Assembly (NCBI GenBank): GCA_021810565.1
Contig: JAJZIM010000026.1
Coordinates: 1 to 40,454, forward strand
Reading direction: 5' to 3'
DNA length: 40,454 bases
Source: Bacillota bacterium
Lineage (GTDB): Bacteria > Bacillota > Sulfobacillia > JAJZIM01
Of this stretch, positions 9,064 to 32,701 are shown in pieces. Position 1 is the stretch's first letter. Each line of letters opens with the position of its first letter. A program made the translations under genes and the position numbers. Below the pieces are notes generated by a model. The model was not told the origin of the DNA. It did no database searches and saw only the letters and a program-made list of their open reading frames with translations.

Positions 9064-9205
9064 GGGGTCTCCCCGGGGGGCCGGCGTGCCCGGGCCCGAC
9101 GGGCGCCGGTCCGAGTGCATCGGGGTGAAGGTGCCATGGCCCGTCAACCGGATGGACAACAAGTCAGGGCGTGGGAGCGGAACCCTTGAACGAGGAGGGA
9201 GGGCC

Positions 9206-9601
9206 GTGCGGATAGGGAAGTTGGCCGAAACGATGGGACTGAAACCGTCCACCCTTCGCTATTATGAACGGGAGGGTCTCTTGGCGGCGCCACGGCGGAC
9301 TGCCGCCGGATACCGCGACTACGGCCCGGAGGACCAGGCTGTTCTTCGCTTCGTGCGCCAGGCGCAGGAAGTTGGGCTGACCTTGGAGGAGATCGGGACG
9401 GTGCTCCAACTGCGCCGCGGTGGGGCCTGTCCCTGCGGGTACGTGGCAAAACTCTTGGAGCAAAAGACCGCCGCCGTGGAGCGCAAGATCCGGGAGCTGG
9501 AGGATTTCCTGCGCGAGCTTTCGGCCCTGCGGGAGAGGGCGGCAAGGGGGATCCAGGACACCGGGCGCTACTGCGAAATCATCGAGGAACGCGGCCCTTG
9601 A
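9206..9601 (+). CDS. MerR-family metal-responsive activator
   Basis: MerR proteins bend and untwist promoters with long spacers when they bind their inducer. The 131-residue protein has the N-terminal winged helix (RIGKLAETMGLKPSTLRYYEREGLL, then AGYRDYG), a long dimerisation helix and candidate metal ligands C75 and C77 (GACPCG) and C123 (RYCEIIEE). Cysteines at these places fit the heavy-metal branch; which metal is bound cannot be read from sequence, though the target gene copA favours copper. The GTG start at 9206 follows GAGGAGGGAGGG. Its stop codon overlaps the -35 box of the operator-promoter that reads into copA. Confidence 0.9.
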   Translation: MRIGKLAETMGLKPSTLRYYEREGLLAAPRRTAAGYRDYGPEDQAVLRFVRQAQEVGLTLEEIGTVLQLRRGGACPCGYVAKLLEQKTAAVERKIRELEDFLRELSALRERAARGIQDTGRYCEIIEERGP

Positions 9602-9746: not shown

Positions 9747-9911
9747 ATGAAGCTATCCGACTGGGCCAGGCAGCAAGGGATCCAATACAAAACGGCGTAC
9801 CACTGGTTCAAGAGCGGCATCCTGCCGGTCCCCGCGCAGCAACTGCCCACGGGAACCATCCTGGTCCATCCGGATGCGCCGGAGAACCGAGGAACCGCCC
9901 TGTATGCCCGG
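9747..9911 (+). pseudogene. tnpA: 5' part of IS607 tnpA (55 codons)
   Basis: The frame begins MKLSDWARQQGIQYKTAYHW, the MerR-like DNA-binding N terminus typical of IS607 TnpA. It continues through PTGTILVH to ALYAR, the start of the catalytic YARVS motif. At that point it enters the 24.3-kb element. Joined to 34217 it gives YARVSSNDQKSDLDRQ, an intact resolvase core. The recombined gene would be 201 aa, the usual length of the family. Confidence 0.9.
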
Positions 9912-11719: not shown

Positions 11720-12244
11720 TCACGGCTTCCGCCTGGCGCGGCCAAGGGCGAGGAGGAAAACGACGCCGGCGGCTCCCGCCGCCGCGCCGTACCAGAAGGT
11801 GCCGGGGGGCCAGATGCTCCCGATCTCCCGGCGCAGCGCGGTGCAGGCGGCCGAGTCTTGGACGATGGCCACCTGAGCCCCCACCTGACATCGGTAGCTC
11901 CAGGAGGTCTGGGGACCGGCCCGCAGGACCTTGCCCAGGCCGTTCAGGTCGCCCGCGACATAGGCGAGGAGCAGCAGGAACACGAGGGCCGCCGCGCGGA
12001 AGAGGAAGCGGCGGTAGGTGCGCCCGGCGGCGGACGTGCTCCGGACCGGTCCCGGCGCTGGTTCGGAGGATGCGGCGGTCCTGCGCCGGCGCACCCGGCG
12101 GGAAAGGGCGCCAAGCACCCGGAAGACGGTTGGGAGCACACCCCCTGCGTGGACCCCGGTGGGCGCCCTGCGGGGCGGAACCTCCCGGAGGGGATCCCGC
12201 TCCCGGTCGAAGCTTTTCGGATCGAGCCGTACCGGCAAACGCAT
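11720..12244 (-). CDS. Small two-helix membrane protein, unknown function
   Basis: From ATG 12244 the product has 174 residues. A long basic N-terminal segment is followed by a transmembrane helix (FLFRAAALVFLLLLAYVAGDL). A loop of about 50 residues with two cysteines (YRC, AAC) comes next, then a second helix (FWYGAAAGAAGVVFLLALG) and a basic tail. The frame is open further up (ATGs at 12382 and 12472), but those extensions are low-complexity and lack SD sites. The real start is uncertain. It ends just before the integrase promoter. No family is recognised. Next to a predicted defence operon it could be an accessory membrane component, which is speculation. Confidence 0.5.
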   Translation of the reverse strand: MRLPVRLDPKSFDRERDPLREVPPRRAPTGVHAGGVLPTVFRVLGALSRRVRRRRTAASSEPAPGPVRSTSAAGRTYRRFLFRAAALVFLLLLAYVAGDLNGLGKVLRAGPQTSWSYRCQVGAQVAIVQDSAACTALRREIGSIWPPGTFWYGAAAGAAGVVFLLALGRARRKP

Positions 12245-12517
12245 CGCCTTCCGCTGGGACCGTCTGCAGCTTTGCCCCTTGTTCTCTTCGCCGCCGAGGC
12301 GGCGTTTCCTTGCCCTGCGAGGCGGTCCAGAGTCGGTCCATCGGTCCAGGCCGGGGGTTCCGGCCGGATCAGCCGTGGACATTTCTTGAACCGGAGGAAA
12401 CCCGGATGGCACAAGAGCCGTCCATGCGGGTCCACCAGTTCGTCCATCCGTCCGTTCTTCCGTTCGTCCCAATGGGTGCGCCGCGCTTCACCCTTGCCTA
12501 TGCCCCCGCCATCCGCT

Positions 12518-14031: not shown

Positions 14032-17000
14032 GTGACGGCAACGGCCGACTGGACGGATATCGCCCCGGATGCTCTCGTGCGCGGCCCCTTTTTTCCCGAG
14101 ACGCTGCGGGTCGTCCGGGCGGTGCCCTTCGCCGGGGGGCTGCGCCTGGAGGCCGTGGGCACCGGCTCTCAGCGCTTTCTCCAGTACCGCCTGAGTACGG
14201 AGCAGTTGGCGCAGGTGGAGGTTTTGGAAGCCGGCAACGACTTTTTGGGCGACCCGGGGTTGTTCAAGCGCGGGGTGGAGGCCCTGCGCCTGGGGCTCGC
14301 CTACGAGTACGACCCCTATTTCGCCCTCTCCGTGGCCCGGGTGGATCCGCTGCCGCACCAACTGGAGGCGGTCTATCACTATTTTCTGCGCCTTCCCCGC
14401 ATCCGGTTTCTGCTGGCCGACGATCCGGGGGCGGGAAAGACCATCATGGCCGGTCTCCTGCTCAAGGAACTGAAGGCGCGGGGGCTGGCGCAGCGGGTAC
14501 TCCTGGTGGTCCCGGCCAACCTCACTTTCCAGTGGCAGCGGGAGATGGAGGAGAAGTTCCGGGAGCGCTTCGAGGTCGTCCGCGGGGAGCAGTTGCGGGC
14601 CACCTACGGCATGAACCCCTTCGCCGAGCGCAATCAGGTCATCACCTCCCTCCCCTGGGTGGCGCGCATCCCGGACGCCAAGGACAGCCTCTTGCGCTGT
14701 CCCCACTGGGATCTGGTGGTGGTGGACGAGGCGCACAAGATGAGCGCCACCCGCAAGCAGAAGACCCTGGCCTACCGGATCGGCGAGGAGTTGCGGGAGC
14801 GCACCGACCACCTGCTGCTTCTGACCGCCACTCCCCACAAGGGAGACAAGGACAACTTCTGCCTGTTCCTGGAGCTCTTGGACCGGGACGTGTACGCTGA
14901 TGTGCGCAGCCTGGAGGAGGCCATGGCCCGCAACTCCGCTCCCTTCTACCTGCGCCGCACCAAGGAGGCACTGGTCGGCTTCCCGGACCCCGAAACCGGC
15001 AAGGCGATGCGGCTGTTCACCCGGCGCGAGGTGCGCACGGCCAAGTTCGAGATGACCAGCCGGGAGATGGAGTTCTACCAGGAACTTACCCGCTATGTGG
15101 AGGAGCAGGCTACGGCGGCGGCCGAGGAGGAGAGTCCCCTGGCCAGGGCGACGGGTTTCTTGATGGCCATGCTGCAGCGACGGTTCGCAAGCTCGGTGTA
15201 CGCCTGTCGGAGGAGCCTGGAGCGCATGCAGCAGCGCCGGCAGGAGGTTCTCAAAAATCCCCAGAAGTACCTGCAGGAGCAGCAGAAGAAGGACTGGGAA
15301 GTGGAGGACCTGGAGGATCTGGAGGACGCCGAGCGGGAGCAGTTCGAGGCGGACCTGGAGCGGGCGGTGCTCCACTTCGATCCCACCAACCTGCGCGAGG
15401 AGATCCGCCAACTGGAGGGACTCATCGACCAAGCCCGGGCCTTGGAGGCCGCCGGGGTGGAGAGCAAGCTGGAAAAGCTGCGGCAGGTGGTCACCGACGG
15501 GAGGCTTTTCGCGGACCCGCAAATGAAGCTTCTGCTGTTCACCGAGCACAAGGACACCCTGGACTACCTGGCGGGCGACGGCAAGGACGGCAGGCCGCTC
15601 GGCAAGCTGCGGGAGTGGGGCTTGAAAGTCTGCCAGATCCACGGCGGCATGAAGATCGGCGATCGGGACACCCCGGGCACCCGCCTCTACGCCGAGCGGG
15701 AGTTTCGGGAATCGGCCCAGGTCCTGGCGGCCACGGAGGCGGCAGGCGAGGGGATAAACCTGCAGTTTTGCTGGTTCATGATCAACTACGACATCCCGTG
15801 GAACCCGGTGCGCCTGGAGCAGCGCATGGGCCGCATCCACCGCTACGGGCAGGAGCACGACTGCCTGGTTTACAACTTCGTGGCCCAGGGCACCCGGGAG
15901 GGCAAGGTGCTGCTGCGGCTTTTGGACCGGCTGGAGGAGATCCGCCAGGAGCTCAGTTCCGAGAGCGTCTTCGACGTCATCGGGGAGATCCTGCCTGGGA
16001 ACCAATTGGAGCGCATGTTTCGCGATCTTTACGCCCGCAAGACCAGCGTGCCGGACATCGAGGCGCGGCTGGTGAGCACCGTCAGCCCGGAGCGGGTGCG
16101 GGCCATCACCGAGTCGGCCCTGGAGGGGCTCGCCCGGCGCAGCTTGAACCTGGCTCCCCTGGTGGCCAGCCGCGCAGAGGCCAAGGAGCGGCGGCTGGTG
16201 CCCGAGGTGGTGGAGGGGTTCTTCCGGGAGGCGGCGCCGCTGATCGGGATCCAGGTCAAGCCCTTCGGCAGGGACGGACGCAGCTTCCGAGTCGACCATC
16301 TGCCGCGCCGTCTGTGGGCGGTCGGGCAGGACGAGGCCTTTCGTGCCCGCTGGGGGCACCTGGGCCACAGCTACCAGCAGGTGGTCTTCGACAAGGAGCG
16401 CCTGCGGGAGCAGCCCACCGCGGAGTGGGTGACGCCGGGCCATCCCCTTTTCGAGGTGGTGCGCGAGGCAACCCTGCGGGAGGCCGAGGAGGCCTTGCGA
16501 CGGGGCACGGTGCTGTACGAGGTGGGGGGCAAGGAACCCCGCCGGCTGGACCTGTACCGGGCCGCGGTGTTGGACGGCAACGGCAAGACGGTGCAGCAGC
16601 GGCTCTTCGTGGTGGAGGCGACCATGGATGGTGAACTGACGCTACGCCAACCTACGGCCTTCATCGACCTTCTGCCCGCTCCGGGGGCCACGCCGCCTAA
16701 CGGCACGACGCTGCCTGACCGGGAGCAGGCGGAGGCTTTCCTCTGGAACCAGGCCCTGGTGCCGTGGCAGGGGGAGTTGGCCGGGGAGCGCGAGCGGGCG
16801 GTGGGTGCGGTGGTCAAGCACGTGGGGATCTCCTTGGACGCCCTGCTGGCCCGGGCCAATTTTCAACTGAGTGAACTGCTGGATCGGCAGCAGGAGGATC
16901 CCCGGGCGCCCGGCATCGCCGGCCGCACGGCCCAGGCGGAGGAACACGTGCGGGAGCTTCTGGCGCGAAAGGAGCAGGCCGAACGTCGGTTGAGCCGGGA

Positions 17001-17475
17001 GAGTCAGTGTGTGCTGGGCGACGTGGAGCACCTGACGACGGCCTGGGTGGTGCCCTATCCGGAGGAGGGCACGCGGGGGAGCGCGCACATCGTGCGGGAT
17101 GACGAGGTGGAGGCCCTCGCCATGGCCGTGGCCATGGACCATGAGCGCGCCCGGGGCTGGGATCCGGAGGACGTCTCCAGGGAGGACCAGGGATTCGATC
17201 TGCGATCCCGCAACCTCGCCACCGGCGCCGTGTGCTTCATCGAGGTCAAGGGCCATGGGGGGAGGGAGCCGACCCTTCTCACCCGCAACGAGTACGACAC
17301 GGCGCGGCGCCTTTGCCGCGACTACTGGCTGTACGTGGTGTACGACTGCCGCACCCGTCCGGAGTTGGTCCGCCACCAAGATCCCGCGCGGCTCGCCTGG
17401 GAGCCGGTGGTGGAGATAAGGCAGTACCGGATAGGGGAAGAGGGGTTGCAGAAGCCAGGGACGCAGACGGGGTGA
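14032..17475 (+). CDS. SNF2-family helicase with C-terminal DUF3883 domain
   Basis: This 1147-residue protein has all main superfamily 2 motifs. Motif I is LLADDPGAGKTIMAG (about 128-142), motif II is VVVDEAHK (about 232), motif III is LLTATPHKGD and motif VI is EQRMGRIHRYGQ (about 594). The last 140 residues form a DUF3883 domain (DVSREDQGFDLRSRN, FIEVKGHG, then LTRNEYDTA). DUF3883 is common in restriction-like defence proteins and may be nuclease-related. DISARM DrmD has a similar helicase, but drmA, drmB and drmC are absent here. GTG 14032 is the only usable start in the frame after the stop at 13969; the good SD at 13976-13980 faces no start in this frame, so the N terminus is uncertain. 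Confidence 0.88.
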   Translation: MTATADWTDIAPDALVRGPFFPETLRVVRAVPFAGGLRLEAVGTGSQRFLQYRLSTEQLAQVEVLEAGNDFLGDPGLFKRGVEALRLGLAYEYDPYFALSVARVDPLPHQLEAVYHYFLRLPRIRFLLADDPGAGKTIMAGLLLKELKARGLAQRVLLVVPANLTFQWQREMEEKFRERFEVVRGEQLRATYGMNPFAERNQVITSLPWVARIPDAKDSLLRCPHWDLVVVDEAHKMSATRKQKTLAYRIGEELRERTDHLLLLTATPHKGDKDNFCLFLELLDRDVYADVRSLEEAMARNSAPFYLRRTKEALVGFPDPETGKAMRLFTRREVRTAKFEMTSREMEFYQELTRYVEEQATAAAEEESPLARATGFLMAMLQRRFASSVYACRRSLERMQQRRQEVLKNPQKYLQEQQKKDWEVEDLEDLEDAEREQFEADLERAVLHFDPTNLREEIRQLEGLIDQARALEAAGVESKLEKLRQVVTDGRLFADPQMKLLLFTEHKDTLDYLAGDGKDGRPLGKLREWGLKVCQIHGGMKIGDRDTPGTRLYAEREFRESAQVLAATEAAGEGINLQFCWFMINYDIPWNPVRLEQRMGRIHRYGQEHDCLVYNFVAQGTREGKVLLRLLDRLEEIRQELSSESVFDVIGEILPGNQLERMFRDLYARKTSVPDIEARLVSTVSPERVRAITESALEGLARRSLNLAPLVASRAEAKERRLVPEVVEGFFREAAPLIGIQVKPFGRDGRSFRVDHLPRRLWAVGQDEAFRARWGHLGHSYQQVVFDKERLREQPTAEWVTPGHPLFEVVREATLREAEEALRRGTVLYEVGGKEPRRLDLYRAAVLDGNGKTVQQRLFVVEATMDGELTLRQPTAFIDLLPAPGATPPNGTTLPDREQAEAFLWNQALVPWQGELAGERERAVGAVVKHVGISLDALLARANFQLSELLDRQQEDPRAPGIAGRTAQAEEHVRELLARKEQAERRLSRESQCVLGDVEHLTTAWVVPYPEEGTRGSAHIVRDDEVEALAMAVAMDHERARGWDPEDVSREDQGFDLRSRNLATGAVCFIEVKGHGGREPTLLTRNEYDTARRLCRDYWLYVVYDCRTRPELVRHQDPARLAWEPVVEIRQYRIGEEGLQKPGTQTG

Positions 17476-17496
17476 GAGCGAGGGAGGTGACCTGCG

Positions 17497-18501
17497 TTGA
17501 CTGACGAGAGAGACATCGTCTTGAGCAGCCACATAGTCGGAAAGGTGGAGATGGACCCGGCAAGGTTGCGCGGAGAGGGTGGGCCGCTGGATCCGTGCCT
17601 CGTGGTGCCGATCAAGGTGCGGATGCATCCGCAGCCGGCGGAGCATCAACTAGCCTTGGTGTGGCTGAGCGGGCGGCTGATGCTTGGGCCGGACACCTCC
17701 GGGGAGCAGTTGGGTTCAACTGTGGGCATGAACCTCATGAACCAAGGCTTTCCCTGCCGTTCCGTTCCGGGTGCGCCAAATGAAAACGGGGTGGAGCTTC
17801 GCTTCCATCTGGCCCCGGCCCAAGTCAGCAAGCTGGAGGAGGCGCGCCACGCCGCATCCCCGGGACGCTTCATCCTCCGGGTAGCCTTGGACGGGGTGAC
17901 AGCCTGGATGCGCCACACCGGCAACAGCATGCAGGGCGTGGACGGAACATCCACCCTCGGTGAGGACGGCTGGCCTACCACCATGGGGATGTTCACGGAT
18001 CTGTCCTACTTCTGGTACACCAAGATTGGTCCGCTGCGGGTACAGGTCGAACCATCCTCTTGGGTGGACAAGGTGCTACCGGGATGGGGCCTGGATCACG
18101 TGCGCTTGGTGGAGATGTCTTTGCCACCGGCTTTGCCCGAACACGGGGATGTCGCCCGGCAATTCTCCCGGGCGTTGCGGGACCTGGACCTTGGCCGCTA
18201 CGACGACTCCATCGCGGCTTGCCGGGGCGTGAAGAATGCCTGGGAGAAGGAACTTGGGGCCAATAAAAAGCATCCTGTAGCACAGATATTGGCGGAGAAA
18301 CAAGGCTGGCCGGAGAACGATCCGCGCCGCAAGCTTTTGGACCAGGCGTGGCAAGGTTTGTGGTTTGTGGTCAATCCGCCGCACCATCCCGAATGGGAGC
18401 AGGATTTCCGACCCTCCCACGCTGATGCCCGCTTCTGCCTGCTGCTCACGGCCATCCTGTCGGAGTACCTGGACAGCCTGCGGAGAGGATCCGGCGCGTG
18501 A
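17497..18501 (+). CDS. Unknown 334-aa protein of the helicase-methylase-ATPase operon
   Basis: The TTG start at 17497 follows AGGGAGGTGA and lies 21 nt after the helicase stop, so the genes are co-transcribed. The first half looks like a beta-rich domain (VVPIKVRMHPQPAEHQLALVWLSGR). The second half is helical, with the segment GRYDDSIAACRGVKNAWEKELG and an end part (DARFCLLLTAILSEYLDSL) resembling helical bundles found in HEPN-like defence proteins. In predicted DUF499-DUF1156-helicase clusters this position is often held by a DUF3780 protein; the length and motifs do not let me make that call. It is probably a specificity or scaffold subunit; this is an inference from position. Confidence 0.7.
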   Translation: MTDERDIVLSSHIVGKVEMDPARLRGEGGPLDPCLVVPIKVRMHPQPAEHQLALVWLSGRLMLGPDTSGEQLGSTVGMNLMNQGFPCRSVPGAPNENGVELRFHLAPAQVSKLEEARHAASPGRFILRVALDGVTAWMRHTGNSMQGVDGTSTLGEDGWPTTMGMFTDLSYFWYTKIGPLRVQVEPSSWVDKVLPGWGLDHVRLVEMSLPPALPEHGDVARQFSRALRDLDLGRYDDSIAACRGVKNAWEKELGANKKHPVAQILAEKQGWPENDPRRKLLDQAWQGLWFVVNPPHHPEWEQDFRPSHADARFCLLLTAILSEYLDSLRRGSGA

Positions 18502-18544
18502 GGGAGAACGGCGAGCGACACCTTGGGAAGGGAGCGGAGGCGGC

Positions 18545-21471
18545 ATGAACGGTCCCCGGCGGCTGATCGAGGTGGACTTGCCTATCGGATGGATTGGAAT
18601 ACATGGTCGTCGTGAGAAGCACATCCAGCATAGACATATTGGTACCCTTAGTAAATGGTGGGCACGTAGACCGTTGGCTGCTTGTAGAGCGGTGGTGCTG
18701 GCGGCGCTTTGGCCCGACCCGGCGGACCCAGCCTGCCCGGGGAGCTTTCGGGCGGCGGCGGCAGCGGAGCTTGCCGCCTTCGGCAGGGAGCGCGGCTGGA
18801 AAGCGCGGGACTGGAACGATCCCGAGGGTTTGCGCCAAGGCCTTTTGGACTTTTTGTCCGAGTTCGCCGCCTGGGAGCACAGCGCGCGGCCCGAGTTCTT
18901 GCGGCTGGCCCGCAACCTCACGGCGGCGGCCCACCAGGCCCTGGGCGGCGACGCGGGCGCGCGGCCCCTGGTGGTGGACCCCTTTGCCGGGGGCGGGGCC
19001 ATCCCCCTGGAGGCCCTGCGGGTGGGGGCGGACGCCTTCGCCTCGGACCTCAACCCGGTGGCCGTGCTCTTGAACAAGGTGGTGCTGGAGTACGTGCCGC
19101 GTTTCGGCGCGGCGCTGGCCGAGGCGGTGCGGGAGTGGGGCGGCTGGGTCAAGGAGCAGGCAAACCGGGAGCTGGCCGCCTACTATCCGAGCGATGCCGA
19201 CGGCTCCGTACCCATCGCATATATTTGGTGCCGCACCGTCACCTGCGAGGGCCCCGGCTGCGGCACCGTGGTGCCGCTTATGCGTGCGCCGTGGCTGTCC
19301 AAGAAAGGACGCAACAGCGTGGCCCTGGAGTTGGTGCCGGATCGGCAGGGGGGAGGGGTGGACTTCCGTCTGAGGGAGGGGAGCCCGGGCAGTCCCCTCA
19401 CCGACGCGCAGGTGGGCGGCGGCACCGTGCGCCGGGGATCGGCCACCTGTCCGGTGTGCGGCTACACCACCCCGGTGGTCCGGGTGCGCGCGCAGTTGAA
19501 GGCGCGCCGCGGCGGGGCGGCGGATGCCCGCCTGGTGGCCGTGGTCACCACGCACCCGGCAAGGAGGGGTCGCAGCTACCGATTGCCGATGCAGCGGGAT
19601 CTGGCCGCCGTGGCGGCGGCCCGGGAGGAGCTTTCCCGGCGGGGGGAGGAGCGGCTGAACGGGCTGCCGGCGGTGCCGGACGAGCCCTTTCCTGTTAACG
19701 ACTCGCGGGCCTTTACCCCAGGTGTGTATGGCATCACGACCTGGGGCGAGCTGTTCACCCCCCGGCAGCTTCTGGCCCTGACCACCCTGAGTCGGCTGGT
19801 GCGCGAGGCCATAGACCGGGTGCGCATCGAGCGGGGCGAAGAATTCGCCCGGGCGGTGGGGACGTGCCTCGCATGCACGCTAAACCGCTGTGTTGACCGC
19901 TATACATCGTTGACGCCTTGGGACCCAGGGCGGATGACAGTAACACATACTTGCATCGGAAATGCCTTGCAAATCATATGGGACTTTGCCGAAGTAAATC
20001 CCTGCTCTGGAAGCATGGGGGGGTGGGAAAGCGCTGTCAATTGGGTGGCTGAAGTTTGTATGCATAACGCCGAGGTGCTAACGGTAACAGGCCAGGCATT
20101 GGCTGCTTCTGCAACACGTATCCCTCTTCCTGACGGTATTGCCCAGGTGTTGATCACAGACCCACCATACTATGATGCAGTGCCGTATGGTGATCTATCA
20201 GACTTTTTCTATATATGGTTGCGCAGAACGGTTGGGGACCTTCACTGCGATCTATTTCGTACGCTGGTAGTCCCAAAAGGCGAAGAGTGTATTGTAAATC
20301 TGGGCTGTGGCAAGGATAAACAATATTTCGAGCTTACGATGGAGCGGTCCCTCTCGGAATGTCGCAGGGTGCTTGCCGATAATGGGATAGGTGTTGTTGT
20401 CTTTGCTAATCAGTCGACGTCAGGCTGGGAAGCGCTACTTGGCGCACTGATAGATGCTGGCTGGACTGTAATGGGTTCATGGCCGATTGACACAGAGAGA
20501 AGTACGCGGTTGAGAGCACATAACTCTGCGGCTCTGGCCTCCTCGGTGCACCTGGTCTGCCGGCCGCGCACCGCTAAAGAGGTCGGCGACTGGCGGGACG
20601 TTCTGGCACAGCTGCCGGGACGGGTGCACCAGTGGCTGCCGCGCCTGGCCGCCGAGGGCATCGTGGGGGCCGACGCGGTGTTTGCCTGCCTGGGTCCGGC
20701 CCTGGAGGTGTTCAGCCGCTATGACCGGGTGGAGAAGGCCTCCGGTGAGGCGGTGCCCTTGGGCGAGTACCTGGAGCAGGTGTGGGCCGCCGTATCCCGG
20801 GAAGCCCTCGGCATGATCTTCACCGGGGCGGACGCCTCGGGCCTGGAGGAGGACAGCCGGCTCACGGCCATGTGGCTTTGGACCCTCCTGGCCGGAAAGG
20901 AAGGGCTGGAGGCAGCCGAAGCGGATGAGGACGAGGAGGAGGTGGAGGCCCCCTCCGGCAACGGCAAGGCCCGCGGCTTCGCCCTGGAGTACGACACGGC
21001 CCGCAAGATCGCCCAGGGCCTGGGGGCGCACCTGGAAGTGCTGGGCAAGCCGGGCGGCATCGTGGAGGTGCGGGGCGATACGGCGCGGCTGCTTCCCGTG
21101 CGCGAGCGCGCCCGGGCGCTCTTCGGTAGGGCCGCCGCGGGCGGCGGCGGGGAGCGCGCCAGCCGAGGCCAGCCGCGCTTTGCCTTCGACACCGCGCCTG
21201 GCGCCCCCCGGCTGGCGGGCGAACTCTCCCTGGCCGCCGGCGGGGAGATCACCCCGGGGACCAGCGTCCTGGACCGGCTGCATCAGGCCATGCTGCTCTT
21301 CGGCGCCGGGGGCGGGGACACCCTGCGCCGGTTCCTGAACGAACGGGGAGCGGGCGCGACGCGCGCTTCTGGCGGCTGGCCCAGAGCCTTTCCGCCATGT
21401 ATCCTGCGGGAAGCGAGGAGAAGCGCTGGGTGGACGGGGTGCTCCTGCAGAAGAAGAACCTGGGCTTTTGA
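18545..21471 (+). pseudogene. DUF1156 (COG1743-type) adenine DNA methylase, frameshift near 3' end
   Basis: The protein begins with the DUF1156 signature (RRLIEVDLPIG, HIGTLSKWWARRP). It has a SAM-binding motif I (VDPFAGGGAIPLEALRVGAD, about residue 145), a zinc-ribbon-like part (CEGPGC and CPVCGY) and motif IV DPPYYDAVPYGDLSDFF with D539-P-P-Y. These mark an N6-adenine methylase of the kind tied to DUF499 ATPases. ATG 18545 follows GGAGCGGAGG. Near 21352 the frame appears shifted: the present frame drifts to a non-family tail ending at 21547. One extra G would give RDARFWRLAQSL...KKNLGF with a stop at 21469-21471, just before the next gene's SD. This is either a real lesion removing the last 40 or so residues or a sequencing slip in a G-run; the catalytic domain is intact either way. 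Confidence 0.85.
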
Positions 21472-21488
21472 GAGGGGAGGGATCAACC

Positions 21489-24284
21489 TTGCGACTGCCC
21501 CCTTGGCACACCGTCGTGCCGCCCCGGGAGGACCTGCGCCGGGGTGAGCCCGTCGACGCCGCGGAGTTCGCCGTGCATCTGGAGAAGGTGCGCGAGGGCA
21601 AAGCTCCGGCGGACTACCAGGAACCGACGCGCTTCTTCGAGCGGACCTATCCCACGGTCAGCCTGAAGAACCTGGCGGGCGAGGTCCTGCGCCGCCTGGC
21701 CGGCCAGACGGTGGAGACCTCGGCCGTGTTCAACCTGACCACCCAGTTCGGCGGCGGCAAGACCCATGCCCTTACCCTGCTCTACCACTTGGCGCGCAGC
21801 GGCGAGGAGGCGAGATCCTGGCGGGGCGCGCGCAGGTTTCTGGAGGCCGGCGGCGTGGAGCAGGGCCCCCGGGCCGCCACGGCGGTATTCGTCGGCCAGG
21901 GGTTCGACGTGGTGTACGGCCGGGAGGGCCGACGCACGCCGTGGGGCGACCTGGCCTTTCAACTGGGGGGACCGGCGGCCTACGCGGTGGTGGAGCAGCA
22001 CGACCACTGGGGCGTGGCCCCTGCCGTGGACGTCTTGGAACGGGTGCTCCCCGCCGACCGTCCGGCCTTGATCCTTATGGACGAGACCATGAACTACATG
22101 GCCCGGGCGCGCACCGTTCGGGCGGGGGAGACGGGCTCCTCCAATTTGGCCACCCAGTTCTACGGCTTTTTGCAGAACCTGACGGAGGCGGTACGCGGCC
22201 GGAAGGGGGCGGCCCTGGTGGCGGCCCTGCCCGGCTCCGACATCGAGATGGCGGCGGAGGACGAGGCGGACTACGCGCGGCTGCAAAAGCTCCTGGACCG
22301 GGTGGGCAAGGCCTATCTCCTGTCCGAGGGCGGGGAGATCCCCCAGATCGTCAAGCGGCGCCTGTTCGAGTTCGGGGAACTGCCCCGGGACGCCGGAAAA
22401 ACCGTGCGCGCCTACGCCGAGTGGGTGCGGGACAACCGGGACCTGCTTCCCGGCTGGTTCCCCCCGGACCGGGCGGAGGAGCTGTTTCGGAATTCATACC
22501 CGCTGCACCCTTGCGTGCTGTCGGTGTTCGAGCGCAAGTGGCAGGTGCTGCCGCGCTTCCAGCGCACCCGGGGCGTGCTGCGGCTCTTGGCCCTGTGGGT
22601 GTCCCAGGCCTACGGGGAGGCTTACCGCGGCGCGCAGCGCGATCCGCTGATCACCCTGGGCACCGCCCCCTTCGAGTTGGCGGCCTTCCGCGCGGCCCTC
22701 TTCGAGCAGCTGGGAGAGGACCGGCTGGAGGGAGCCGTGACCACCGACATCGCCGGGGGAAAAGGCGCCCACGCCGTGCGCCTGGACGAGGCGGCGGGCA
22801 GGTCCCGATCCGAAATGCGGCTGCACCGCAAGGTGGCCGGCGCCGTATTCTTCGAGTCCAACGGTGGCCAGGCCAAGGCGGAAGCCACCCTGCCCGAGGT
22901 GCGTCTGGCCGTGGGCGAGCCGGGCATGGAGATTGGGCTGGTGGAGTCGGCGTTGGAGTCCCTGCGGGATGCGTGCTACTTCCTGCATGCCGAGGGCAAT
23001 CGCTACCGCTTCGGCTTTCGCCCCAACCTGAACAAGCTCCTGTCCGACCGGCAGGGCGCGGTGGATCAGGAAGCGCTGCGGCGGCACGCCTGGGAGACGG
23101 TGCAGCGCGCCTTCGCTGTCCCCGCCGCGCTGCGGGGCAGGCTGCGGGTGGTGTTGGGGCCTGAGAAGAGCGGGGACATCCCCGACGAGGCGCTCTTGAC
23201 CTTGGTGGTGGTGCGCCCGGAGGAGGGCATGGACGAGGAGGCTGCCACCCTGGAACGGGTGCGCCGCTGGACCCAGGAGCACGGCGCCTCCCACCGGAGC
23301 TTCAAGAACGCCCTGGTCTGGTGCCTGCCCGCGGGAGCGGCGGAACTGCATGAATGTGCCCGGCGTTACCTGGCCTGGAAGGACATCGAGGGGGACCAGA
23401 GGGAACTGGGGCTGGACGACACCCAGCGCCAGCAACTGGAGCGCGGGCTCGAGCGGGCGGAGTCGGACCTCAGGGAGGCGGTCTGGCACACCTATCGGCA
23501 CCTCCGGCTGCTGGGCAAAGACGGAGAGTTGCAGGGCGTGGACATGGGGCTTTTGCATTCCAGCTCCGCCAGTTGTCTGGTCGAGATGGTGCAGCAGCAG
23601 TTGGAGCAGCAGGGGGATCTGGTGCGCAGGGTGGGGGTTTCCTTCCTGCGGCGCAACTGGCCGGCATCTCCCTGGTGGAGCACCCGCCGCCTGGTCGATT
23701 CCTTTTTCGCCGCGCCCCGCTTCCCGCGGCTTTTGAATGCCGACGACGCGGTGCGCGAGGCCGTGGCTGACGGGGTGGCCGAAGGAGAACTGGCCTATGC
23801 CGCAGGCCCCGAGGAGAAGGATGCCCGGATTTGGTTCCGGGAGGCGATGTCCGCGGCAGAGGTGGAGATAGCCGAGGACACCTTCGTGCTCACCCCGGAG
23901 GAGGCGCAAAGGCACCTTGAGTCCACCGGGACCGGCGCCGAGAGCGTAGCGGGCGAGTCCGAGGAGCCATGGCCGGTACCCGCAACGGGTGGGGGCGGAC
24001 CCACGCCGATGCCGCCCACCTCCGACACCGGGTGGCTGGATCCTGGCAACCGGGAAGGCCGGGTGAGCGTCCTTGCCTGGCGGGGCGAGGTCCAGCATCA
24101 GAAATGGAACCTATTCTACCGGCAGGTGCTAAGTCCGCTCGTGCAGAAAGGAAGCATCAAGGTGGAAATCACACTTAAGGCGGAGAAGCCAGAAGGGTTT
24201 TCTCCCGAGGTGCGATCATCGCTTAAGTCGGCCCTGCGGGAATTGACCGATGGTGGCGAACTGAAGGAATTTGAAGGAATTTGA
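21489..24284 (+). CDS. DUF499-family P-loop ATPase
   Basis: The 931-residue protein starts at TTG 21489, eight bases after GGGGAGGG. It begins RLPPWHTVVPPREDLRRGE, as DUF499 proteins do. The Walker A motif lies in NLTTQFGGGKTHALTLLYHLA (about 82-102), and the Walker B motif is ALILMDETMNYMARA (about 190-205). Further conserved-looking blocks are RNSYPLHPCVLSVF and RFQRTRGVLRLLALWV. DUF499 ATPases occur with DUF1156 methylases and helicases in defence islands and probably drive a restriction-like complex. The C-terminal 60 residues include a separate small domain (KVEITLKAEKPEGFSPEVRSSLKSALRELT). The stop lies within a tandem repeat of GAAGGAATTT. Confidence 0.9.
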   Translation: MRLPPWHTVVPPREDLRRGEPVDAAEFAVHLEKVREGKAPADYQEPTRFFERTYPTVSLKNLAGEVLRRLAGQTVETSAVFNLTTQFGGGKTHALTLLYHLARSGEEARSWRGARRFLEAGGVEQGPRAATAVFVGQGFDVVYGREGRRTPWGDLAFQLGGPAAYAVVEQHDHWGVAPAVDVLERVLPADRPALILMDETMNYMARARTVRAGETGSSNLATQFYGFLQNLTEAVRGRKGAALVAALPGSDIEMAAEDEADYARLQKLLDRVGKAYLLSEGGEIPQIVKRRLFEFGELPRDAGKTVRAYAEWVRDNRDLLPGWFPPDRAEELFRNSYPLHPCVLSVFERKWQVLPRFQRTRGVLRLLALWVSQAYGEAYRGAQRDPLITLGTAPFELAAFRAALFEQLGEDRLEGAVTTDIAGGKGAHAVRLDEAAGRSRSEMRLHRKVAGAVFFESNGGQAKAEATLPEVRLAVGEPGMEIGLVESALESLRDACYFLHAEGNRYRFGFRPNLNKLLSDRQGAVDQEALRRHAWETVQRAFAVPAALRGRLRVVLGPEKSGDIPDEALLTLVVVRPEEGMDEEAATLERVRRWTQEHGASHRSFKNALVWCLPAGAAELHECARRYLAWKDIEGDQRELGLDDTQRQQLERGLERAESDLREAVWHTYRHLRLLGKDGELQGVDMGLLHSSSASCLVEMVQQQLEQQGDLVRRVGVSFLRRNWPASPWWSTRRLVDSFFAAPRFPRLLNADDAVREAVADGVAEGELAYAAGPEEKDARIWFREAMSAAEVEIAEDTFVLTPEEAQRHLESTGTGAESVAGESEEPWPVPATGGGGPTPMPPTSDTGWLDPGNREGRVSVLAWRGEVQHQKWNLFYRQVLSPLVQKGSIKVEITLKAEKPEGFSPEVRSSLKSALRELTDGGELKEFEGI

Positions 24285-24674: not shown

Positions 24675-25109
24675 ATGGCAAAAATGAAGGTATGCGTTAG
24701 TTATGACGCCGATCATGATAAAGAGTACAGAAGGCTTTTGGAGGCATGGGATGCCAATTCCAACATAGCTTTCTCATTCAATAACCTGACGCCAGAAGAG
24801 ATAAAAAGTGAAAACTATACTGCAGTGAAGGGGGTGCTGACCAAGAAGATCAGCAGTGCTACTCGTCTGCTTGTGATCGTCGGGGAACATGCTAAGCAAC
24901 GACACCCACGCTACCAAGAGATTGGAGACCATAACTGGATGTATTGGGAGATCAACAAGGCCAAGGAATTATCCAAGAAATTAGTAGCTGTCAAAATAGA
25001 TAAGTCTTTCGAATCCCCAGATCCGCTTCTGAATAGCGGGGCGTATTGGGCGAATTCATTTACCCTGAAAGCAATTACCGCCGCTCTGGAAAACAGCAAG
25101 GGAACCTAA
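24675..25109 (+). CDS. TIR-like (DUF1863/MTH538 type) protein
   Basis: The 144-residue protein matches the bacterial TIR-like family used in Thoeris and related abortive defences. It has strand A VCVSYDADHDKEYRRLL, an ISSATRLLVIVGEHA core and WMYWEINKAKELSKKLVAVKID. E92 in WEI is the likely catalytic glutamate of a nucleotide-processing TIR domain. ATG 24675 follows AGGAGG by eight bases. GC content is far below that of the flanking genes, so this gene and the next arrived as a unit from another source. It lies 16 nt upstream of a four-helix membrane protein, which suggests a sensor/signal generator plus membrane effector. It may act on NAD+; that is inferred from the family. Confidence 0.85.
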   Translation: MAKMKVCVSYDADHDKEYRRLLEAWDANSNIAFSFNNLTPEEIKSENYTAVKGVLTKKISSATRLLVIVGEHAKQRHPRYQEIGDHNWMYWEINKAKELSKKLVAVKIDKSFESPDPLLNSGAYWANSFTLKAITAALENSKGT

Positions 25110-28133: not shown

Positions 28134-28378
28134 CCCTCGTCCTCCTCCCCGGCTTGGGTTTTGGAGTGCTTTTGGAGGGCTGCCTCATCGGTCTCCACCC
28201 TCGCCACAACCTCTTCGACGAAGGGCCGGTGGTTGCAGAAGGCCCGCAGGTGGCGGCCGTCCGTGGGGCAGGTCAGTGCCACCGCGACCTTGCCTTTTTT
28301 CGAGTGGGTGATGCTCACGCGAAGGGACGCGCCACAGATGAAGCAGGTCGGGAGCGGCCGGGTCGCCTCGGTAGTCAT
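28130..28378 (-). CDS. Small zinc-ribbon protein between ParB-like and resolvase genes
   Basis: The 82-residue product has CFICG near residue 12 and CPTDGRHLRAFCNH in the middle, a likely treble-clef or ribbon zinc site. An acidic tail follows. Both ends overlap neighbours by 4 nt (ATGA), so translation is coupled. Its tight linkage suggests it works with the ParB-like or Mom-like protein. The family is not named. Confidence 0.65.
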   Translation of the reverse strand: MTTEATRPLPTCFICGASLRVSITHSKKGKVAVALTCPTDGRHLRAFCNHRPFVEEVVARVETDEAALQKHSKTQAGEEDEG

Positions 28379-29043
28379 CGTTCGTCACCTCCTGATTGTG
28401 TCGCCCCGTCTACACCTGAGCCTCGGAGCCACTCGCGGCAGATCTCCACCAGGGCCAGGGCGCGGCGGTTGGGCTCTTCGGCTGCCGCCACCCGCGGCAG
28501 TGCCTTGGAGATGGCCTTCTCCACCACCTCCCGCTGTTCCGCCGTGAAGGGGAAAGAGACCCGTTCCAGACGAACCGCCCTGGCCTGCTCCCAGATGTTG
28601 AGGGCCTCGGCCAGGGAGGCAGCCGATTGCTGCCCTATGGAGGCCAATCCCCGCAGGGCCTCGGCGGTGTCCGGCAGAATGGCCAGGACGTCTTCCTCCG
28701 GCATGGCGGCCAACAGATCACGGGTCAGGGCCGCCTTCTTGTTCAGATCGTCCTGGCCGTGGACGGCGTTCAGGGCTTGGGCCAGCAGCCGGGCGCCCAT
28801 GTCGTCCAGGTGGACCACCACGCAGGGCGCACTGGCAAGTTTTTGTTCCCGGTAGAGCCGCAGCCGCTGGTTGCCGCCCAGCACTTCGAACCGCTGGTCG
28901 CTCACGGGCCGCACCACGAGGGGGAGCACCATGCCGAAGCGGCCGATGCTGGCGGCAAGGCGGCCCAGGGCGGCAGCGTCCATCTCGTTGGGGTTCCAAG
29001 GAGCGGGGAGCAACTGCGCCAGGGGCAGATCAGTAACTTCCAA
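28375..29043 (-). CDS. ParB/Srx-fold protein
   Basis: The 222-residue protein begins with a ParB N-terminal domain: LPLAQLLPAPWNPNEMD, GRLAASIGRFGMVLPLVVRP and FEVLGGNQRLRLYREQ. The GGNQR box corresponds to the ENxxR/GERR-type nucleotide-binding site of ParB. The C-terminal part is helical and lacks a clear ParB HTH. The frame is open far upstream, but TTG 29043 is chosen because AGGAGGT lies seven bases before it and the upstream frame overlaps the Mom-like gene. ParB-like proteins with Mom-type modifiers occur in phages and mobile elements. It may bind the GTGCAC repeats or act as a CTP/ATP-dependent partner; both ideas are untested. Confidence 0.8.
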   Translation of the reverse strand: MEVTDLPLAQLLPAPWNPNEMDAAALGRLAASIGRFGMVLPLVVRPVSDQRFEVLGGNQRLRLYREQKLASAPCVVVHLDDMGARLLAQALNAVHGQDDLNKKAALTRDLLAAMPEEDVLAILPDTAEALRGLASIGQQSAASLAEALNIWEQARAVRLERVSFPFTAEQREVVEKAISKALPRVAAAEEPNRRALALVEICREWLRGSGVDGATQSGGDER

Positions 29044-29047
29044 GAGA

Positions 29048-29761
29048 TCAACCTCCTCGCTTCGGGTACGGCAGGACGGGAACCAGGAGCCGAATGCGCC
29101 AGGTCGGGTCGACGAAGACCACGTACCGGTGCTTGCCCGCCTGAGGAACGAGGCGCACCGGCAGGCCGCGACGTCGAAGATAGGCCGCCGAGTGGGTGCC
29201 GAAGGCCGAGCCCACGGAGCGCAGGTGGCGGGGTACGCCGTCGCCCAGGTCCATGAGCGGCTGGGCCTCGCTGACGCCGGTGTAGAGCCAACCTGCAGCC
29301 TGGTACACGGTGCCAACGTGGCCGACGCCAGGATCGGCGTAGCTCAGCAGGAACTTCAGCCGGGTGGACCTCCTCAGGGCGCGGACGAGGACTCCCAGCA
29401 GTCGGGACTCGCTGTTCTTGGGCAGGTCGTCCTCCAGCCAGAGGCGCGTAAGGGTCAGGCAGTCGTCGCGAGTTGCCCCCTCCACCAGGCGATGGCCGTT
29501 GATGGGGCCCACGCCCAGGCTGACGGCACCCCGGAGGCGGCTGTCAGTGAAGACGCCGAAGGTGAGCTTTGTGCCGCCGGGCATGGAATGGAGGTAGTGG
29601 TGTCTTACGAGGACGTCCTGCGCGACCCGATGCGGCACCGGAAGCATCTCGATCATGCGGGGGTTAATCTGGAGCGCCGGGGTCCGATTCGAACGGCCAT
29701 CCCCGCCTTGGGCAGGCGGTGGGCTGCCAGTTGCCCCACCGGCGCGGGTTTTTGCCCTCAT
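29048..29761 (-). CDS. Mom-like DNA adenine modification protein
   Basis: The protein resembles the Mom family, named after the phage Mu enzyme that converts adenine to a methylcarbamoyl derivative and thereby evades restriction. Diagnostic blocks are HHYLHSMPGGTKLTFGVF, LTLTRLWLEDDLPKNSESRLLG, LLSYADPGVGHVGTVYQAAGWLYTG and the C-terminal VLPYPKRG. The fold is related to GNAT acyltransferases. The ATG at 29761 overlaps the upstream stop (ATGA); the first 35 residues are low-complexity, so translation may begin later. It lies 4 nt before the ParB-like gene. Modifying the element's own DNA would protect it from host restriction, or mark self for the nuclease systems it carries. Confidence 0.85.
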   Translation of the reverse strand: MRAKTRAGGATGSPPPAQGGDGRSNRTPALQINPRMIEMLPVPHRVAQDVLVRHHYLHSMPGGTKLTFGVFTDSRLRGAVSLGVGPINGHRLVEGATRDDCLTLTRLWLEDDLPKNSESRLLGVLVRALRRSTRLKFLLSYADPGVGHVGTVYQAAGWLYTGVSEAQPLMDLGDGVPRHLRSVGSAFGTHSAAYLRRRGLPVRLVPQAGKHRYVVFVDPTWRIRLLVPVLPYPKRGG

Positions 29762-30162
29762 CGCATCTCTCCTTGGGCCTGGGGTGGCCGCACCAGATCA
29801 GCCGGCACCTCCACGGCTGTCTCCGGTCGGCTGTCCAGCGCCACGGCGCAACGGGCCTTGATCACCTGCAAGAGCCTGCCTGGGCCATGCGGCGTCTCCA
29901 CCTGCTGGCCTAAGAAGGGATAAAGCCGGGCGGCGCGGTGACCGAAACAGGCTTCCGCACGCAGCGACTCGGGCGGCCTGCCATCGGTTTCCTCTTCCCT
30001 CAGGTGACCCAGGGCATCGGGCTTGTGAGAACGAAGCTCATGCAACAAGGGTGTCACCTGACGGCGATCCGGCTGTCCGGCTCCCACGTAGCGGTAGCGG
30101 ATATCGCCGCCTTCGGCGAAGACGTGATAACCCAAGCGCCGCAGTTCGTCTACAGCACGCAT
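29758..30162 (-). CDS. Small TubC-docking-like protein of the replication operon
   Basis: The 134-residue protein begins AVDELRRLGYHVFAEGGDIRYRYVG and continues with ...VTPLLHELRSHKPDALGHL. This resembles the TubC N-terminal docking fold often seen in plasmid or phage replication proteins. The C-terminal half is unassigned. Its ATG shares one base with the primase stop (TGATG), and its stop overlaps the Mom-like start. A role as adaptor for the primase is likely but not proven. Confidence 0.6.
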   Translation of the reverse strand: MRAVDELRRLGYHVFAEGGDIRYRYVGAGQPDRRQVTPLLHELRSHKPDALGHLREEETDGRPPESLRAEACFGHRAARLYPFLGQQVETPHGPGRLLQVIKARCAVALDSRPETAVEVPADLVRPPQAQGEMR

Positions 30163-32324
30163 CAGACCGATCCTTCCCGGAGTTCATCCTCCGCCAAGAA
30201 TTTGCGATCCCCCTCTTCCGGATTCGAGTGCACGACTGCACGGGTCGCCTCGGAACCCTTGCCACCGCTGAGCTCGGACCCGTGCATGGAGGTGTGCACA
30301 GGTGGCTCAACGGAGTGCACAGGTGCACGGTTTGCGGCGGTCTCCGTGTGCACTTGTGCACGGTCGTCGGAGGGGATGCACAGGTCAGTGCACGGGTTGG
30401 GAGCCGCATCAGGAGTGGCTTCCTGGCCTACCCGTGCACGCGTTCGCTCGTTTTTGGAGTGAACCGCCGCCAAGTCCTCCGGGGTGGGAAGCGCTTGGGC
30501 ATCAGGGAGTGGGTCGCCGAGGACCAACACGGCTGGCCGACCACGTCGCGGCTGAAGGTTGACCAGAAAGCCAAGGTGGATGGCCTTGGCCACGCGCCGG
30601 GAAGCCGCCGAGCGGTCGATGCCCAGCTTCGCCGCGGCCTCGCTGATCGAGGGGCCGGAGGGGCAGTTCGGGTCAGCAGCATCTGGGACGGCATCTGTTG
30701 CTTCCTGAAGACTGCGCACGGCCTCCACGGTTTCCCGGACGGCGGGGGAGCAGCTGTCTGCCGCCGTGGCGGCGAAAATGTCCGCCACGATGTCATGGAC
30801 GGCCTGGTAGTCCGCCAGGGTGGCCAACACACGTCCCGCCCCGTCCAGCTCGCGCTGGCGCTGGTAGAGCAGGGCATGGGCCTGGATCAGGGTGACGAGT
30901 TGGGAAAAGTCCCGGCGTGCCCGCACCTGCCCAGCGGGGAAAAGCTCCGCCATCGCGTGGGCGAAAGGTACCAGCACGCGTCGGCGGCCGGCTATCTGGA
31001 GCCAGCCCTGCGCCGCGATGAAGGGAGAAAAATCCATGTCCGCCAGCACCCCCTCGGCGACGTCCGCAATGGCATGGAGCACGGCCTGAGTGTGTTCGGG
31101 GGTATCCGGAACCGAAGCCTCCAGCATCCGGGTTGCCAGTTCCGGCTCCAGCTCGCCGACGGTGGTGGTGATCAGGCCGGTGGGTCCGGCCTTCTCGATA
31201 TGTCGTGCGACGAGTCCGTCAGGGCTGTTCTCCACGGTGTCGTAGTTGAGCTTGCCTTCCCAGGCGAGGCTGCGGATGACCACGGCTCCCGCACCATCTT
31301 GAGCGAAGCTTGCCGCCTCGGCCACCACCACCACACGATGGGCGAGGTCCTCCTCGGAGTAGATCAATGCACGCTCGCTGCAGGCGGTCAGCCGGTAGAA
31401 GGCGTCGGCGGGGAAAAGTTTGAGCACCGCGTCCACCTCGGTGGACTTGCCTACCGACGAGGGGCCGGTGATGAAAAGGTTGACCGGGCGAGGGAGAAGT
31501 CGCGAGGTGATGGCCAAATAAAGGAGCTTGGACAAGCGGCGGTCGCCAGCCAGGCCGGAGCGGCGCATCACGTCAGCCATCGCTTGGAGAATATCCGGCC
31601 GATCCGAGAGGCCGTTCGTGGTGGCCAGGAGGTTCTCCGCCTCCCGGCTCCTGTCGGTGGCGAGGACGTCCTCCAGGCGCTGGCGGGGGCAGGCCGACAG
31701 CCAAGCGATGAACCGTTCCTTATCGTGGTCGGCCCGCCATGCGTCGCCCACATCCTTGAAACCCGCCGGTTTCACCAAGTGGATGTTGGCGCCCGGTAAG
31801 TGCTTGGCCAACGCCTGGCCGCTTCGCCGGGCACCAGCTTGGCCTGCCGCGTCGCCCTCGACCACGATGAGAATGTCGGCGTGCCGGTATGGATCCAAGA
31901 AGGAGACCCATTCCGGCTTGAAGGTAAGCGCTCCCGGGAGGCCTAAAGCGGCTTCTCCCGCAAAGCCCAGGGTCTGGACGTCGGACTCTTCTCCCACGAT
32001 CCAGACCTGGCCGGTGCGCTCCGCGGCGTGAAGGGTATGGCGCCCGTAAGGCTGGAGCCGCACGCCTTTGGGCTGGTCGAAACGCTGCCCCTCTTTCAGG
32101 CCGACCCGCCAACGGGAAAGCACCGCCGCGCCGTTCTCGTCGAGGTAGGGGATCAGAACTGCTGACCTGCCGTGCCGCTTGTATTCCGCCAGTCCCAACG
32201 TTTGGAGATAGTCTTCCGGCAGAGCCGTGTGGGTTGCGTAGGCGTGTAAAGTGACTCCCTCCAGGGATCCGGTGCCGAGGGCCGCTTGGACCCTGGCGAC
32301 TGCTGTCTGAGTGTCAGCAGGCAT
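30162..32324 (-). CDS. TOPRIM primase-helicase
   Basis: This 720-residue replication protein has a TOPRIM domain (VWIVGEESDVQTL around 107-118, ILIVVEGDAAGQAG around 151-164). A P-loop domain follows with NLFITGPSSVGKST (about 283-296) and the acidic strand HRVVVVAEAA. A winged helix-turn-helix lies near the C terminus (SISEAAAKLGIDRSAASRRVAKAI). The CHC2 zinc finger that usually precedes TOPRIM is encoded by a separate overlapping gene. The C-terminal 120 residues are low-complexity, and their DNA contains the GTGCAC repeat cluster, so this end may serve mainly as an origin. The element can therefore probably replicate after excision. Confidence 0.88.
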   Translation of the reverse strand: MPADTQTAVARVQAALGTGSLEGVTLHAYATHTALPEDYLQTLGLAEYKRHGRSAVLIPYLDENGAAVLSRWRVGLKEGQRFDQPKGVRLQPYGRHTLHAAERTGQVWIVGEESDVQTLGFAGEAALGLPGALTFKPEWVSFLDPYRHADILIVVEGDAAGQAGARRSGQALAKHLPGANIHLVKPAGFKDVGDAWRADHDKERFIAWLSACPRQRLEDVLATDRSREAENLLATTNGLSDRPDILQAMADVMRRSGLAGDRRLSKLLYLAITSRLLPRPVNLFITGPSSVGKSTEVDAVLKLFPADAFYRLTACSERALIYSEEDLAHRVVVVAEAASFAQDGAGAVVIRSLAWEGKLNYDTVENSPDGLVARHIEKAGPTGLITTTVGELEPELATRMLEASVPDTPEHTQAVLHAIADVAEGVLADMDFSPFIAAQGWLQIAGRRRVLVPFAHAMAELFPAGQVRARRDFSQLVTLIQAHALLYQRQRELDGAGRVLATLADYQAVHDIVADIFAATAADSCSPAVRETVEAVRSLQEATDAVPDAADPNCPSGPSISEAAAKLGIDRSAASRRVAKAIHLGFLVNLQPRRGRPAVLVLGDPLPDAQALPTPEDLAAVHSKNERTRARVGQEATPDAAPNPCTDLCIPSDDRAQVHTETAANRAPVHSVEPPVHTSMHGSELSGGKGSEATRAVVHSNPEEGDRKFLAEDELREGSV
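30228..30439. repeat. Cluster of GTGCAC iteron-like repeats inside primase gene
   Basis: The palindrome GTGCAC occurs exactly at 30228, 30294, 30315, 30323, 30348, 30356, 30388 and 30434. One-mismatch copies lie at 30236, 30282 and 30376. Three sets are spaced exactly 8 bp start to start (30228/30236, 30315/30323, 30348/30356), and most second copies are followed by GG. Eight exact copies in 212 bp is far above chance. The coding frame does not need them. It could be the replication origin (compare the origin inside gene O of phage lambda) or a binding array for the ParB-like protein. Confidence 0.8.
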
Positions 32325-32487
32325 GGCGGAGGAAGACCCCTCTGAGGACGTTCACGGCACAGCTAGCGTGCCGATCCTTGTGGAAGGGGCACTTGGCCAT
32401 GCGCTCGTTGGTCGTGCCACGCAGGTCGAACTCGGGGCGAAGCTTTGAAAATGCTTCCAGCCAATCCACGGAAGATCGGTTCGTCAC
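32314..32487 (-). CDS. CHC2-type zinc finger protein, first gene of replication operon
   Basis: The 57-residue product holds most of a primase CHC2 finger: DLRGTTNERMAKCPFHKDRHASCAV and then GVFLRHAC before the stop. The usual C-x-x-C of the second half appears as R-x-x-C, so one zinc ligand seems missing. GTG 32487 is preferred over the frame start because GGAGGAG lies eight bases upstream. It overlaps the TOPRIM primase gene by 11 nt. Together they look like one ancestral primase split in two, or a finger supplied in trans. Confidence 0.7.
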   Translation of the reverse strand: MTNRSSVDWLEAFSKLRPEFDLRGTTNERMAKCPFHKDRHASCAVNVLRGVFLRHAC

Positions 32488-32701
32488 CTTTCCGACTCCT
32501 CCTCCCACGTCCCGCTCGGGGTCTCACCGCCGGAAGGCGGACATTCAGCGTGGGCCGAACCACGACGGAGGCAAATGTCGACAGCCTCGCTCAGCCTGCG
32601 GCGCCAGTCCGACGCAGGGGTGGAAACTATGATCAGCTTAAGCTGTCCATCGCGGCGAGGCATTGCGGGTCCCCTCCCGCCAGGAAAGAATCTTCGATCA
32701 A

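Follow-up and report, generated by a model that had tools for sequence, protein, structure and literature searches.

A GTGCAC iteron array, probably a replication origin, in the 3′ coding tail of a primase and MCM-like helicase gene of a Bacillota mobile element

The window, by which we mean the whole 40,454-nucleotide stretch of the Bacillota contig analyzed here, carries on its minus strand a gene (30162..32324) for a 720-aa initiator candidate. Its open reading frame, Foldseek results and an HTH_28 match lead us to read the protein as a Toprim primase, an MCM-like AAA+ helicase, a C-terminal wHTH domain and a disordered tail, with the helicase assignment taken from a medium-confidence structural model. 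Sequence libraries returned weak matches only: HTH_28 near aa 559–598 (E = 4.3e-5, just under the curated Pfam cut-off) and, in the Toprim part, families of phage primases, including the DNA primase/helicase family phrog_239 at aa 35–234 (E = 4.7e-8). The model itself, built on a four-sequence alignment, has a mean pLDDT of 61. The top 17 Foldseek matches were all MCM chains (MCM2–7; best 9lxd_4, E = 1.1e-7), at a TM of about 0.3 over the whole chain, and DnaG (5guj, E = 7e-4) and T7 primase (1nui) appeared lower down.

All parts of the gene are read from the minus strand. The Toprim region, corresponding to the DnaG-type primase catalytic part, covers about aa 107–211 (31692..32006; phrog_239 and Foldseek) and is followed by the predicted MCM-like ATPase at about aa 217–523 (30756..31676), which has a P-loop GPSSVGKS and a moderate pLDDT in the region matched by Foldseek. 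The wHTH domain at aa 526–611 (30492..30749), placed by HTH matches, model and alignment, is our proposed reader of the array described below; its helices and wing are well modeled (pLDDT mostly 60–93). The remaining tail, aa 612–720 (30165..30491), is predicted to be disordered (pLDDT 25–42 for residues 631–720) and contains the array. A CHC2 zinc finger is split from the primase as a separate 64-aa ORF (32314..32508, minus strand; PF01807, E = 5.7e-5, just under cut-off) that is overlapped by the ATG of the primase. This ORF ends in RHAC followed by a stop, leaving the last CxxC pair degenerate, and priming may be impaired for that reason.

Other genes in the window include the Hma-type defense genes HmaA, HmaB and HmaC (14032–24284, plus strand; PADLOC E 1e-172, 5e-115 and 6e-116), followed by a ThsB-like TIR gene (24675–25109) for which no ThsA was recognized. 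A Mom-family DNA modification gene (29048–29761, minus strand) overlaps the ORF of a ParB_N-domain protein (28375–29316) in the initiator operon. A large serine recombinase (9753–11507, minus strand) lies beside chromosomal-looking genes and is a candidate integrase for the element. The contig ends showed no overlap of the kind expected for a circular plasmid.

Directly after the wHTH coding region, within the 3′ tail of the gene, lies the cluster of GTGCAC palindromes that the initial annotation had reported. All eight exact copies were recovered, at 30228..30233, 30294..30299, 30315..30320, 30323..30328, 30348..30353, 30356..30361, 30388..30393 and 30434..30439, together with one-mismatch copies at 30236..30241 (CTGCAC), 30282..30287 (GTGCAT) and 30376..30381 (ATGCAC). 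Pairs spaced by 8 bp with a trailing GG were likewise found as described, exact at 30315/30323 and 30348/30356 and with one mismatch at 30228/30236; the commonest extended form of the site is GTGCAC[A/G]G. Eight copies in 212 bp have a probability of about 5e-16 at background density, and the 11 sites within 30228–30439 compare with about 1.6 expected per 250 bp when one mismatch is allowed. The genome-wide excess of GTGCAC that the initial annotation had named as a possible objection was not observed: the window holds 17 copies against 10.9 expected from dinucleotide shuffling, with the other nine scattered over its 40 kb, and a pattern search (three GTGCAC with gaps of ≤30 bp) had the array as its single match across the 3.18-Mb genome. 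The reversed control of this pattern gave zero matches in the genome.

The sites are spread over all three frames of the gene, with four in frame 0 (encoding VH), three in frame 1 and one in frame 2. Synonymous recoding of the tail with the gene’s own codon usage produced a mean of 2.3 sites and eight in 0 of 20,000 trials, while shuffling of codon order produced a mean of 0.34 and never eight. Selection therefore acts on the DNA, as had been supposed when the cluster was first noticed.

Ten of the 11 sites form five pairs mirrored about position 30337.5 (30236/30434, 30282/30388, 30294/30376, 30315/30356 and 30323/30348), an arrangement absent from the initial annotation. The probability of five such pairs is 0.0009 if sites are placed uniformly and 0.0027 if the observed gaps are shuffled, for a pattern that was spotted first and tested after. 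The two half-arrays thus mirrored make up an imperfect palindromic region (30225..30450, centered at about 30337.5) whose 34-nt outer arms are 74% complementary, and three inverted repeats (I1, I2 and I5) have this same center. Site spacing is 46 bp in both the inverted repeat TGCACGGGTC...GACCCGTGCA and the inverted repeat GTGCACGGGT...ACCCGTGCAC, the latter holding the iteron at 30388 in its left arm and that at 30434 in its right. We sought an AT-rich melting element in the window array and found none, the spacers being 28–34% A+T. Helical phasing of the window sites was not significant (Rayleigh p 0.09–0.14).

Comparison with homologs showed repeats of different sequence at the same place in several of them, so that the lack of repeats in homologous elements contemplated in the initial annotation did not occur. 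The window’s own class includes a frameshifted relative (G072) with the helix core DRSAASRR of the window protein and four exactly mirrored TCGTGC/GCACGA sites just past the stop codon, for which a generic count test gave P = 0.11. The most informative comparison is between two Moorella elements, L119 (from G165) and L120 (from G358; matching M. mulderi L025), whose homologous proteins lack a counterpart of the 720-aa protein’s tail. These proteins are about 90% identical and diverge at the wHTH: identity per 25-aa block is about 72–100% up to about aa 550 and then mostly 36–60%. DNA homology (83%) runs to about aa 587 and picks up again, at 94% over 163 bp, in a downstream GTTGCA array. Between these homology blocks, L119 has its own wHTH and about ten GTGTGCA copies directly after the stop codon. 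The wHTH and the array have thus been exchanged jointly, and the alignment indicates that wHTH and new array arrived together, with the old array left beside them.

The Moorella operon is also preceded, at a distance of about 1 kb, by a second GTTGCA array that mirrors the downstream one, and L119, with its exchanged wHTH, retains old GTTGCA arrays flanking the operon on both sides (9156–9261 and 12194–12287). In M. mulderi, several near-identical AT-rich segments (gttaagggaatgttaaga...tgttattatg; L025:3750–4350) separate the upstream GTTGCA array from the regulator gene and resemble repeated promoters. Spacers in the Moorella arrays are 36–59% A+T. No ParB-domain gene was recognized among the Moorella neighbors checked.

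More distant relatives are encoded on plasmids as CHC2-Toprim-ATPase-wHTH proteins adjoining xerC genes, with the ATPase in common. Their 3′ tails carry arrays of GGTCGG (L013, L016, L113 and L117), GGTCTG (L014 and L112), CAAGTC (L015) or AAGTTG (L111), and a Leptospira member (L115) has a CTTCGC array downstream of the gene. Several of the plasmid-type arrays have an 11-bp period. Motif covaries with the recognition helix sequence, (G/S)DTQLKxHL occurring with GGTCGG in 4/4 cases and SDSQLKNHC with GGTCTG in 2/2. In an exact 6-mer shuffle test of 13 tails, six reached the smallest possible p (0.0025) and two more fell below 0.05; results were not significant for L024 (p = 0.57), L026 (p = 0.39), L012 (p = 0.46), L017 (p = 0.90) and L016 (p = 0.11), and p ≤ 0.01 was reached by 7% of random 450-bp segments drawn from these loci with the arrays included. 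L114 and L118 showed no cluster of four or more copies. The tail array is common but not universal among homologs, and the primase is always the gene nearest to the array where one is present. A second short-repeat array, often with 11-bp spacing, was seen upstream of the primase, ahead of the HTH regulator gene, in L012, L013, L014 and L016; in L014 it consists of ten GATTCA copies (714–913), and the other three have other motifs.

On an 11.3-kb circular plasmid from Lonsdalea (L121), a family member is the only annotated replication gene in a gene table that is incomplete. This plasmid and an 8.8-kb one from Shigella (L122) are small circular molecules with xerC, a primase-family gene, toxin-antitoxin and immunity-type genes, and neither has another annotated replication gene in its likewise incomplete table. 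Among viral contigs there were no close relatives; an alignment scan with the plasmid type returned one clear relative (L031), the rest being mostly short partial primase/Toprim matches. Phage records matched in the Toprim region only, and the wHTH domain used alone as query found nothing in plasmids or phages.

The arrangement resembles several known replication systems to different degrees. In SaPI/PICI elements the origin consists of iterons directly 3′ of rep, and a helicase initiator reads two sets of short iterons through its C-terminal domain (PMC7581432, PMC6092414). Here, too, repeats stand at the 3′ end of the initiator gene, the Moorella and G072 arrays start right after the stop codon, and the five mirrored pairs parallel the two iteron sets. 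In the window, however, the coding sequence itself contains the iterons; a single protein combines primase, helicase and wHTH; and the AT-rich region found between the SaPI/PICI iteron sets is absent, the spacers being GC-rich. The helicase family of SaPIbov1 Rep and Cch is DUF927, whereas the 720-aa protein has no Pfam DUF927 match, and no PICI genes were recognized among the window’s annotated genes. A rep-ori-like way of working is what we propose; with neither AT-rich core nor DUF927, membership in SaPI/PICI is not claimed. In SCCmec, similarly, direct repeats lie behind the Cch/Cch2 helicase gene, and the C-terminal domain of the helicase binds them (PMC7581432). Cch2, however, is of the D5 type, its CCPol-MP primase is a separate protein and its three iterons, of 5 nt, lie outside the gene, whereas here a Toprim primase is fused to the helicase.

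The phage P4 alpha protein joins a Toprim-type primase and a helicase to a C-terminal winged helix, through which the protein binds the repeats of its origin (PMC4234260). It shares the primase type and the C-terminal wHTH with our protein, but its helicase is SF3, while the modeled fold here appears to match MCM and not SF3. Neither ori nor crr of P4 is known to lie inside the tail of the gene. Lambda iterons are also read by the initiator (PMC3985674). That initiator, O, is unrelated to the window protein, has no helicase or primase and has four 19-bp iterons. They lie within the O coding sequence, an in-gene location like the one seen here. In Sulfolobus, ORF904 of pRN1 is a multidomain primase-helicase with a C-terminal winged helix and an origin just downstream of its gene (PMC4234260); it differs in its archaeal-type prim/pol, its SF3 helicase and a stem-loop origin that has no iterons.

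Several other explanations of the array were weighed. It might be an operator or a copy-control locus at which the wHTH autoregulates or handcuffs copies in the manner of P4 crr, with the true origin elsewhere. All of the binding-site evidence fits such a locus equally well, and the second GTTGCA array upstream of the Moorella operon favors it. A repressor would nonetheless be expected to have its operator at the promoter rather than in the 3′ tail, the surroundings of the gene showed no further origin-like array, and the corresponding place in SaPI/PICI is the origin (PMC6092414); we regard this explanation as rather unlikely. The initial annotation had alternatively suggested a ParB-type array. 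On this view it would be a parS-like centromere, with the ParB_N-domain protein encoded three genes downstream (PF02195, E = 1.8e-10) as its reader. Palindromic, clustered sites would suit that protein, but in Moorella the arrays stay linked to the gene for the primase-helicase, with no ParB-domain gene recognized among the neighbors checked, the motif changes exactly where the wHTH of the primase changes, and the primase is the nearest gene in each homolog with an array. We rejected this suggestion as very improbable.

Selection on the protein is harder still to credit. A repetitive, VH-rich, disordered tail peptide could leave DNA repeats as a by-product, and four sites do encode VH in frame; such an origin of the array is already contradicted by the use of three frames, by the recoding results and by the Moorella and Leptospira arrays outside coding regions, and was rejected. 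Much the same slight probability attaches to recognition of the sites by a modification or restriction enzyme, such as the neighboring Mom-like protein (encoded two genes downstream; PF25680, E = 1e-52) or the Hma methylase. The cluster occurs at a single place in the genome, and homologs have unrelated motifs at that place; this explanation was also dropped.

We conclude that the clustered GTGCAC sites form an iteron array that is, with good probability, the replication origin of the mobile element, placed in the 3′ coding tail of its own initiator gene. The origin proposed in the initial annotation is favored by the different arrays at the same place in homologs, and the array would most likely be read by the gene’s own wHTH in a SaPI/PICI rep-ori-like fashion, though embedded in coding sequence. 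Joint wHTH and array exchange and the covariation of helix and motif provide the apparent link between reader and site, and we infer origin function from the SaPI/PICI/SCCmec precedent and from the 11.3-kb plasmid. Against an origin stand the missing AT-rich stretch, the homologs with non-significant results, the 7% of random segments that also score p ≤ 0.01, the post hoc symmetry and the degenerate CHC2 finger. We hypothesize that the wHTH binds the mirrored GTGCAC iterons and that the two half-arrays, being mirror images, serve as assembly sites for two MCM-like helicase rings. These would then melt the duplex, after which the Toprim part would prime and the host replisome would take over.

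The PICI rep-ori layout has been termed unique among known bacterial replicons (PMC6092414), and the primase and MCM-like initiator family has most of that layout. Three points are new here: an MCM-like primase-helicase has the array behind it within its own gene, the layout is broadly distributed, and reader and sites are exchanged jointly. Chances are about even that these elements represent a broad, undescribed replicon class, spanning Bacillota, Planctomycetota, Spirochaetota and Pseudomonadota, in which a primase and MCM-like helicase initiator harbors the origin in the 3′ end of its gene or immediately beyond it and in which the wHTH is swapped along with its cognate iterons as a specificity cassette. 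Because the wHTH coding region adjoins the iterons, specificity may be exchanged as one unit, and the Moorella pair constitutes a natural experiment in the exchange of replication specificity. Few integrative elements, and far from all plasmids, have a known origin. If the 3′ tails of initiators of this family do signpost the origin, then origins, specificity and hence incompatibility would be readable directly from sequence across many lineages.
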